From Candidatus Gastranaerophilales bacterium (GTDB lineage Bacteria; Cyanobacteriota; Vampirovibrionia; Gastranaerophilales; Gastranaerophilaceae): a stretch of 32,793 bases of DNA. Numbering within the stretch: the first letter of the stretch is position 1; the number at the start of each line of letters is the position of its first letter. Of the stretch, positions 10,900-31,702 are shown piece after piece. Under the pieces are notes generated by a model that saw only the letters and a program-made list of their open reading frames with translations, had not been told where the DNA came from and did no database searches. A program made the position numbers and the translations under genes. The DNA is taken from positions 1 through 32,793 of the forward strand of contig CALUTK010000020.1 in assembly GCA_944323675.1 (NCBI GenBank). Reading direction: 5' to 3'.

Positions 10900-11035
10900 A
10901 TAATTTACGCATGTTGTAACATCACTTAATAATTAAAGTGAAAGGTAAACAGCAAGGAGTAAAAGGGACAGCTAAATAAGAAATGAACCATACTAATTAG
11001 AATTATGATTATGTTTTATATATAAATTCAATACA

Positions 11036-11066
11036 AAAAATCCCTCCTTTTACGGGAGGGATTTTT
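11036..11066 (-). terminator. intrinsic terminator of the LysM gene
   Basis: AAAAATCCCTCC pairs with GGGAGGGATTTTT across a 6-nt loop. On the minus strand the stem is followed by a T-run, 11 nt after the LysM gene stop. Its symmetry would also allow plus-strand termination. Confidence 0.88.
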
Positions 11067-11076
11067 ATTAATATAT

Positions 11077-12453
11077 TTACCAGAACTGCCACCATGGTTT
11101 TTGTTCTTCACGTTTTGCTTTGGCTGCATCTGACATTTCCTGAATGCTCGGCATTCCTTTTTCTTCTGTTTTTGTTGAATCTGCCTTCTGGGTATTTTGT
11201 TCAGGAACTAATCCCGGTACCTCAAAAGAAGGCTGTTCGTATGCCGGAGTTTCATCATCAGGACGTTTTATATATGGACTGATATTTTCATTATCTGCCG
11301 CTCCGGTATCAGGCTGCGGGTTTTGACTAGCAGCGGGTGTTTCTTTTTCTTCAGCCTTTTTATTCTCAGTTTCAGGCGTTTCTGCTGTGTCATCTTTCGG
11401 TCTAAAAGGAACCTGAACGTCGTCTGCAGGCTCATTCAAACCAGGAATCTCAGGTTTAAACTGCGGTATTTCCCATTTCGGAGCCTCGTATGCAGGTGTA
11501 TTTTCATCCGGTGCTAAAGGTGTCGGTCTTTCCGGAACCTTATCCGCGGCGTCTTTCTCTTTTGCTTCAGGATTTTCCTGAGCTTTCGGAGATTCTGCTT
11601 TTGGAGTTTCAGGCGCTTCTGATGTCTCATCTTTCGGTCTAAAAGGAACCTGAACGTCGTCTGCAGGCTCATTCAAACCAGGAATCTCAGGTTTAAATTG
11701 CGGTATTTCCCATTTCGGAGCCTCTACATCTGCATCTTTTTCTTCCGGACGTGCAATGTACGGATATTCTTTTCTGAATTCTTCATCCGTCATTTCAGGC
11801 GTATCACCTGTACCTTTTGGTTTTTCGTCCCCGTCCTTTGGTGTTTCATCAGCACCTTTCGGTTTCTCTGCACCGCCTTTAGGTGTTTCTTCTGCCTGTT
11901 CTTCACCATCGGCATTTCTTCCGGCTTCATATTCGCCTTTTGTTCTTATATTATGTTCTTTTCTGAAATTTTCATCCATAATTCTGTATGACTGAGTTCT
12001 GTCATCACAGAGTTTTGTATCAAGATTTTTCATGGAATCTTCATACTTTTTGCGTTCTGCTTCTGATGTTGTTTTAAGATTCTCTTCAACGGCTTTCATA
12101 TTTGCTTTGGCAGGAAGCTTAATCTTTGCACCGACAAGAAAACCTGCAACTTTTTCTCCGTCACAGTCGGTGGCGCTTTTAAAATATTTCAGTTGTTTCT
12201 GGTTCAAATCCATAATTTCCTGAACAGAAACACCGTATTTTTTCGCAATAACTGCAATTGATTCACCATTTAATACAGTAACAGAAACTGTTTCATCATC
12301 CGCTGCGGCAGGCTTGTCCTTTTTGCCTGCAAGCCCTTCTGTCAACTGCTGCTGTTCAGCCTCGGTTTTTTTCTTGTCGTAATTTTCACCATCAACCTGT
12401 CCGACCTGCTGTCCTTGATTTCCGGCAGCACCCACTTTCATTTCATCACTCAT
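11077..12453 (-). CDS. LysM-domain protein with long Pro/Glu-rich repetitive tail
   Basis: A LysM-like domain lies at about 56-116 (SVTVLNGESIAVIAKKYGVS ... LVGAKIKLPAKAN); LysM normally binds peptidoglycan or other GlcNAc polymers. The rest is low-complexity and highly charged. It has PKG/PKD-rich short repeats (EETPKGGAEKPKG), two identical 32-residue blocks (EAPKWEIPQFKPEIPGLNEP ... VPFRPKD) and related PYIARPEE and PYIKRPDDE motifs, ending in KPWWQFW. There is no signal peptide or membrane helix, so its route to the cell wall is unclear. A C-terminal targeting signal or an intracellular role are both possible. An AAAGGA site precedes the ATG and a terminator follows. Confidence 0.8.
   Translation of the reverse strand: MSDEMKVGAAGNQGQQVGQVDGENYDKKKTEAEQQQLTEGLAGKKDKPAAADDETVSVTVLNGESIAVIAKKYGVSVQEIMDLNQKQLKYFKSATDCDGEKVAGFLVGAKIKLPAKANMKAVEENLKTTSEAERKKYEDSMKNLDTKLCDDRTQSYRIMDENFRKEHNIRTKGEYEAGRNADGEEQAEETPKGGAEKPKGADETPKDGDEKPKGTGDTPEMTDEEFRKEYPYIARPEEKDADVEAPKWEIPQFKPEIPGLNEPADDVQVPFRPKDETSEAPETPKAESPKAQENPEAKEKDAADKVPERPTPLAPDENTPAYEAPKWEIPQFKPEIPGLNEPADDVQVPFRPKDDTAETPETENKKAEEKETPAASQNPQPDTGAADNENISPYIKRPDDETPAYEQPSFEVPGLVPEQNTQKADSTKTEEKGMPSIQEMSDAAKAKREEQKPWWQFW
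11390..11487 (-). repeat. 98-bp direct repeat inside the LysM gene, copy 1
   Basis: This segment matches 11627-11724 at 97 of 98 positions by eye (one C/T difference near 11461). It encodes the repeated EAPKWEIPQFKPEIPGLNEP block. Near-identity at synonymous sites points to recent duplication or gene conversion, which would allow copy-number change of the protein repeat. Confidence 0.9.
11627..11724 (-). repeat. 98-bp direct repeat inside the LysM gene, copy 2
   Basis: Second copy of the segment at 11390-11487, offset by 237 bp (79 codons), so recombination between copies would stay in frame and delete 79 residues. Confidence 0.9.
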
Positions 12454-12656
12454 CGTAATATCCTTTCAATATTAGTTAAAAGTTTCATTATATGTATTTA
12501 TAAACAATTTATATATCTAAAAATTGCCTATTTTTTATATACTTAGAATACTGCCGGATTAAATTCCAGTACTTTCAACTGTTTTATGGTTATGGCAAGT
12601 TGTAATAATACTTAACAATATATACAACCAGACATTACACATTAACTAATTTGTAG

Positions 12657-31449: not shown

Positions 31450-31457
31450 GCGGCGGA

Positions 31458-31702
31458 GCCGCTGCACTATTTGCCACAATATTTGACGGTGCACTTTTGC
31501 AGAAATTACAACAATTTTCCACCTGGTTTGTCGTGCCGTTTTAAACGTTAAGGGTGAGAGGTTATTGCTCAGCCGCTGCACTTTTTGTCATGATATTTGA
31601 CGGGGCACTTTTGCAGAAATTACGACAATTTGTCACGTGGTTTGTCATGGCGTTTTAAACATTAATAGTGAGAAGGTTTTGCTAATCCGCTGCTTTTTAT
31701 CG
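31458..31702. repeat. 114-bp tandem repeat, two full units and a partial third
   Basis: Units start at 31458 (GCCGCTGCACTATTTG), 31572 (GCCGCTGCACTTTTTG) and 31686 (TCCGCTGCTTTTT), exactly 114 bp apart. Shared internal blocks include ATATTTGACGG, GCACTTTTGCAGAAATTAC and the end CGTTTTAAAC. Units differ by roughly 15-20 substitutions and no indel, so they are not very recent. The unit is a multiple of 3, but no convincing frame runs through it. It lies directly after pcrA. Confidence 0.85.

Follow-up and report, generated by a model that had tools for sequence, protein, structure and literature searches.

C-terminal membrane-targeting sequences of the MinD/FtsA type are short, terminal, cationic and hydrophobic, and they contain no transmembrane helix. 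Another C terminus, DUF3967 (PF13152), belongs to MerR-type proteins of Bacillus plasmids and of related records, and some of its members share a terminal PWW[KR]FW. Among LysM domain proteins (PF01476), Mbg of Bacillus thuringiensis, which has been used for cell-surface display, is described as having no predicted signal peptide (PMC2754439), and the hexapeptide RRWWRF is described as a cationic, Trp-rich antimicrobial (PMC6017362).

Here we describe a LysM gene in a Gastranaerophilales MAG (a 1.81-Mb assembly in 82 contigs); "the window" denotes the whole stretch of 32,793 nucleotides that was analyzed. Gastranaerophilales are gut-dwelling relatives of cyanobacteria. The encoded protein matches PF01476 above the curated cut-off, but it differs from the usual proteins of this family in having no leader, a Cys-bearing insertion after the LysM core, a long variable spacer and an aromatic tail. 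Mbg resembles it as a leaderless LysM wall protein but hydrolyzes peptidoglycan and comes from a Gram-positive bacterium, and neither Pro-rich repeats nor a PWWKFW tail is mentioned in the part of that report drawn on here (PMC2754439). The tail shares the short, terminal, cationic-hydrophobic nature of MinD/FtsA-type sequences, and one DUF3967 relative ends in GFIARLFGRT; however, those sequences form an amphipathic helix of about 10 to 15 residues, whereas the tail is a Trp-rich heptapeptide. The carriers of DUF3967 differ in being DNA-binding coiled-coil proteins, and the Gastranaerophilaceae C termini that we tested gave no PF13152 match. RRWWRF has a composition of the same kind as the tail but, as described, is a free peptide rather than a protein terminus (PMC6017362). 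The features of the locus, in window coordinates, are as follows.

11077..12453, minus strand: leaderless LysM protein CDS, 458 aa (ORF list; start shared by orthologs)
12461..12467, minus strand: ribosome-binding site GAAAGGA, overlapping an in-frame TGA stop at 12466-12468 (sequence read)
12199..12279, minus strand: LysM domain core, residues 59-85 (Pfam PF01476)
12163..12165, minus strand: Cys97 codon, in the insertion after the LysM core (alignment of LysM relatives)
12007..12009, minus strand: Cys149 codon, the second cysteine (alignment of LysM relatives)
11158..11916, minus strand: Pro-rich acidic spacer, residues 180-432, fast evolving (composition and ortholog comparison)
11605..11724, minus strand: repeat copy 1, nearer the protein N terminus, 120 nt (repeat search)
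11368..11487, minus strand: repeat copy 2, 120 nt, 97% identical to copy 1 (repeat search)
11080..11157, minus strand: conserved C-terminal 26 residues, MPSIQEM segment plus aromatic tail (ortholog alignment)
11080..11100, minus strand: KPWWQFW terminal motif (translation, pattern scans, alignment)
11023..11079, no strand assigned: inverted repeat directly 3' of the LysM-gene stop, TCCCTCC, loop, GGAGGGA, with a T run on the minus strand (repeat search)

Gene boundaries and the missing leader

No signal peptide was found in the 458-aa protein: over its first 40 residues, the best 19-residue mean on the Kyte-Doolittle scale is -0.65; the corresponding means of three window proteins with ordinary leaders are 1.5 to 2.56. 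A leader hidden upstream was considered and rejected, because an in-frame TGA lies five codons before the ATG and the GAAAGGA ribosome-binding site precedes the start. Orthologs whose start can be read are leaderless as well, and the N-terminal signal peptide of a Sec-exported surface protein is missing from the LysM protein and its orthologs alike. The sequence-only reading had pointed to this absence and had named a signal peptide encoded upstream in relatives as evidence to the contrary; none appeared, and the hydrophilic N terminus, the upstream stop and the leaderless relatives bear the claim out. At the other end of the gene, the inverted repeat, which was absent from the output of a consensus terminator scan, is likely an intrinsic terminator.

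LysM domain and cysteine pair

The PF01476 match (residues 59 to 85, E = 1.2e-5) reaches 25.6 bits, above the cut-off of 20.9, and no catalytic domain was found in the protein in Pfam. A hydrophilic start is followed by the single LysM domain, an extension to about residue 179, the spacer (253 residues, of which 40 are Pro, with a net charge of -34) and the 26-residue end. An AlphaFold model (elements E6-10, H17-24, H28-40 and E58-63) has a mean pLDDT of 45.3, too poor for a check of the beta-alpha-alpha-beta LysM fold or of a disulfide. Cys97 and Cys149 are the only cysteines of the protein. Among 17 usable LysM relatives (14 aligned plus 6 added, 3 of the latter giving no usable LysM stretch), 12 have both cysteines, 5 have neither and none has a single one; as read from the alignment, this pattern is one clade difference, with the first Cys within an insertion, rather than repeated independent loss.

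Orthologs and the length-variable spacer

A protein search of 79 genomes, our own included, gave matches in 16, and the LysM gene with its tail is present in 6 of the 13 genomes of the genus (our own and five more). A divergent dppD-like ABC gene adjoins it in all six, and the opposite flank holds a MerR-like gene and recA in the window versus ispE and ksgA in the relatives (names assigned by eye). Three further genomes of the genus (G001, G009 and G010) encode a larger LysM protein without the tail. The three orthologs with intact frames are 88 to 97% identical in the LysM region and 77 to 92% in the tail, compared with 46 to 59% in the spacer.

Two nearly identical, in-frame 98-bp repeats 237 bp apart had been reported from the sequence alone, together with the prediction that a 79-residue segment could be gained or lost, and both claims stood up. 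The repeats, with 1 mismatch within the first 98 nt of the unit, now extend to 120 nt at 97% identity, and their offset of 237 nt equals 79 codons, so that the unit, which contains 16 prolines, is kept in frame. Full units, counted by one motif, number two in our genome and in G011 and one in G005, G012 and G002, that is, one or two depending on the species. G003 also has one unit by this motif, but its assembly is split within the repeat (L005, L018), and the LysM-gene frames of G012 and G002 are broken in their assemblies, which biology or assembly error would fit alike. Within our genome the unit cores of the two copies share 99% identity, compared with 67 to 73% when set against the units of G011 and G005, and the two copies of G011 are 76% identical to each other. 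Because the units of relatives are far more divergent, the near-identity of the window copies must be recent in the lineage, by duplication or gene conversion. Elsewhere in the window (31457-31693), a 114-nt tandem repeat of 2.1 copies directly follows a UvrD/PcrA-like helicase gene.

The aromatic tail within Gastranaerophilaceae

All six orthologs conserve the tail, and a profile search with the 26-residue end also picked up unrelated proteins ending in KPWWKFW. A scan for PWW-x-[FL]-W followed by TRR gave one match in each of 17 of 288 family genomes, versus none of the 288 for the reversed control. One match is a spurious 29-residue frame, and the remaining 16 represent six families by sequence: A (the LysM protein, 6 matches), B (6) and C, D, E and F (1 each). 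PWWKFW followed by a stop terminates the five sequence families besides A, and all six appear leaderless by eye. Family C gave no match in the family B search. Family B occurs in 7 of the 16 genomes of its genus, the seventh member, a syntenic ortholog, ending in KKWYQFWK, and family F is full length in 1 of 278 genomes. The sequence-only reading had proposed a look for other proteins of the genome with this aromatic C terminus. The motif is common to the orthologs and to other families, and the 1.81-Mb assembly itself has no second carrier by the strict pattern, KPWWQFW being its sole match to WW-x-FW followed by TRR.

In Cyanobacteriota outside Gastranaerophilaceae, 38 tag matches were found, 23 followed by TGG, which is not a stop, and 15 followed by a stop (putative genes). 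The window tail matched no Pfam family at E values up to 10, and PF13152 likewise gave no match up to E = 10 on seven Gastranaerophilaceae C termini (three of family A and one each of B, D, E and F).

The tail on phage and plasmid proteins

PWWKFW followed by a stop was found in 99 viral-contig stretches that form 19 protein clusters, one of which is just six residues long. Two composition-matched scrambles gave 0 and 8 viral stretches, and the reversed PWWxFW pattern, run as a control, matched 58 stretches across the viral collection as a whole, versus at least 120 for the true pattern. A chance origin of the tail was rejected on the basis of these controls and of the reversed one in the family genomes. 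When a scan for variants was pooled with the PWWKFW-stop scan, the matches listed comprised 50 clusters, built by BLASTP at 1e-5 alone, so that distant kinship between clusters is possible. Among these matches, K or R occupies the variable position in 25 of the 27 clusters with a protein of at least 60 aa and in 5 of the 19 clusters under 40 aa; PWW is preceded by K or R in 23 of the 27 K/R clusters of at least 40 aa.

The carriers include MerR-DUF3967 proteins, ThyX, a papain-like peptidase, a phage CII-like regulator and a structural-looking protein of 1,337 aa. Relatives of the MerR-DUF3967 protein were found in 227 plasmid records, mainly of Bacillus and Priestia, and in one phage. Among six such relatives (five from plasmids and one from a phage), five end in KKKPWWRFW, KKWWRFWEAKQR, KSWWQKLWK, KRWWHIFKKSHNSHD and the MinD-like GFIARLFGRT, and the sixth lacks a tail of this kind.

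Of 53 PWWKFW matches without an adjacent stop (best frame at least 60 aa), 23 lie within 10 residues of the C terminus and 4 no more than 30 residues from the frame start. The other 26 are located elsewhere, many of them in a single type of phage protein of 1,100 aa. In three viral contigs (L385, L414 and L428), PWWKFW lies near the N terminus (MATKQPWWKFWGG) of a phage protein with a 511-aa frame; therefore, the motif is not confined to C termini. With 26 of these matches internal and 4 near the frame start, a strictly C-terminal signal reading of PWWKFW is weakened. A literature search limited to the terms WWKFW, WWRFW and DUF3967 returned no mention, and so far we have found no name in print for the recurrent terminal PWW[KR]FW motif, apart from a fragment within DUF3967.

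What the tail may do

The tail is probably an interfacial membrane anchor rather than an export signal, because it also ends ThyX, a papain-like peptidase and MerR regulators, for which export is unexpected. On the Wimley-White interface scale, and among regions partly picked for holding tagged genes, the last seven residues of the LysM protein sum to -4.66, the lowest of 376 distinct C termini, and none of 364 untagged C termini reaches -3.5. The best clue to an action of the tail at the membrane interface comes from the DUF3967 relatives, which seem to exchange it for other aromatic-basic or MinD-like ends. The sequence-only reading had left open whether KPWWQFW is an export or a membrane-association signal; membrane association fits better, and the export half is disfavored by the tails of unrelated phage and plasmid proteins.

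A role of the tail as a C-terminal signal, for export or for chaperone docking, in a type III or other secretion system would agree with the leaderless state of all six tagged Gastranaerophilaceae families and with the tagged family F gene (L077), which is convergent to an flhB/sctU gene. Such a signal nevertheless seems quite unlikely to us, given the identical tail on unrelated phage and Bacillus plasmid proteins and the leaderless LysM relatives of the same genus that do without it; the place of family F beside flhB may moreover be chance, as this family is full length in a single genome. A different difficulty for a membrane anchor is that some carriers of the tail (ThyX, the phage structural protein) do not require a membrane, that the motif also lies inside long phage proteins, and that one of the six DUF3967 relatives lacks the tail. 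A protein-protein role is therefore possible, the tail being a short linear motif for a partner, not a lipid, widespread among bacteria. The recurrence of the exact hexamer, the K/R preference in 25 of 27 longer clusters among the matches listed and the excess over scrambles (99 versus 0 and 8 stretches) would suit such a motif, but the scans demanded the exact hexamer and thus say nothing on its strictness, and the swap for other aromatic or MinD-like tails within one family fits a lipid better; we consider a protein partner rather unlikely. The broader proposition that [KR]-P-W-W-[KR]-F-W, placed at a protein end or close to it, serves unrelated bacterial, plasmid and phage proteins as a portable tag for docking to membranes, and in Gastranaerophilaceae would anchor leaderless, type III-exported LysM tethers, is likewise doubtful as a whole.

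Probable export from the cytoplasm

Our assembly contains 6 LysM matches in 5 proteins, none of which has a Sec-type start. Besides the window protein, one carries Amidase_3, one Phage_lysozyme, one a mid-protein hydrophobic stretch and one EF-hand and RHS-repeat matches; the leaderless LysM-amidase and LysM-lysozyme genes are adjacent (L377:6117-9191 on G000:C33). A search of the literature on LysM in Gastranaerophilales found nothing related. Vampirovibrio and some Gastranaerophilales have been reported to encode flagella (PMC4451040). In our data, 114 of 117 family genomes have FlhB, and of the 13 genomes of the genus all have a full-length FlhA and none a flagellin. The own genome thus holds an export apparatus, with FliE, FliF and FliH in the FlhA operon and FlhB elsewhere (G000:C28:22921-24897, L376; G000:C3:46784-47809, L097).

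From the cysteine pair, the leaderless LysM amidase and lysozyme of the genome and the flagellin-less type III apparatus, we consider it likely that the LysM protein leaves the cytoplasm, and a non-Sec route is plausible. The LysM gene is not near the type III genes, and these genes occur in nearly every family genome; therefore, their presence gives no tie to it. The earlier suggestion of a length-variable wall-binding protein with an uncommon secretion route accordingly holds for the length variation (one or two units), with wall binding and the non-Sec route being plausible predictions.

Several other genes of this system caught our attention. A free-standing 492-aa protein (L379:9004-10482 on G000:C16) matches the C-terminal half of FHIPEP (FlhA/SctV) alone, and counterparts of it occur in all 13 genomes of the genus. 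A 560-aa protein (L377:661-2343) that starts with MGLSASQARLLTITARKSDCEYESMRLSHQKIAL has no Pfam family above threshold and might, as a guess, serve the export system as a structural protein. Read by eye, leaderless proteins conserved beside flhB (L098:7166-8758, L099:6698-8317, L100:11015-12508 and L105:7368-9023) are candidate type III substrates, and those of L098, L099 and L100 have a metallophosphatase-like FYxNDxH motif close to the N terminus.

A possible wall-to-membrane tether

We tentatively propose that the LysM protein is a wall-to-membrane tether with a length-variable spacer, exported without a Sec signal, a reading that we favor over the others but regard as possible, not as probable. 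The N-terminal LysM domain, stiffened by a Cys97-Cys149 disulfide, would bind peptidoglycan, and the acidic Pro-rich spacer, presumably disordered, would set the reach of the tether, its length shifting by recombination between the in-frame 79-residue units. The C-terminal basic segment and KPWW[KQ]FW tail would sit in the membrane interface, substituting for a lipid or transmembrane anchor. Exit from the cytoplasm would most likely be via the flagellin-less type III export apparatus of nearly the whole bacterial family.

The protein could instead stay in the cytoplasm, docked by its tail to the inner membrane face, with the LysM fold binding something other than peptidoglycan. Cytoplasmic LysM proteins are known (Kbp/YgaU, SpoVID), the window protein has no leader, and the same tail is found on MerR-DUF3967 proteins, which as DNA-binding proteins are necessarily cytoplasmic. 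Against this, its only two cysteines co-occur among relatives, and the substrate of the leaderless sister LysM proteins with amidase and lysozyme domains lies outside, and we judge a cytoplasmic location rather unlikely. Still less probable, in our view, is a delivery of the LysM proteins into other cells as effectors, in the manner of the type VI LysM amidases of Acinetobacter: leaderless LysM-hydrolase architectures are described among type VI effectors (PMC6833914), and EF-hand and RHS-repeat matches accompany LysM in one relative from the own genome, but Pfam gave no catalytic domain for the window protein.

If the tail of the proposed tether is a portable anchor, its six-residue ending would predict membrane localization for many uncharacterized bacterial and phage proteins. 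If the leaderless LysM proteins exit via the flagellin-less type III apparatus, they would be concrete substrate candidates for a near-universal export machine of this gut lineage.
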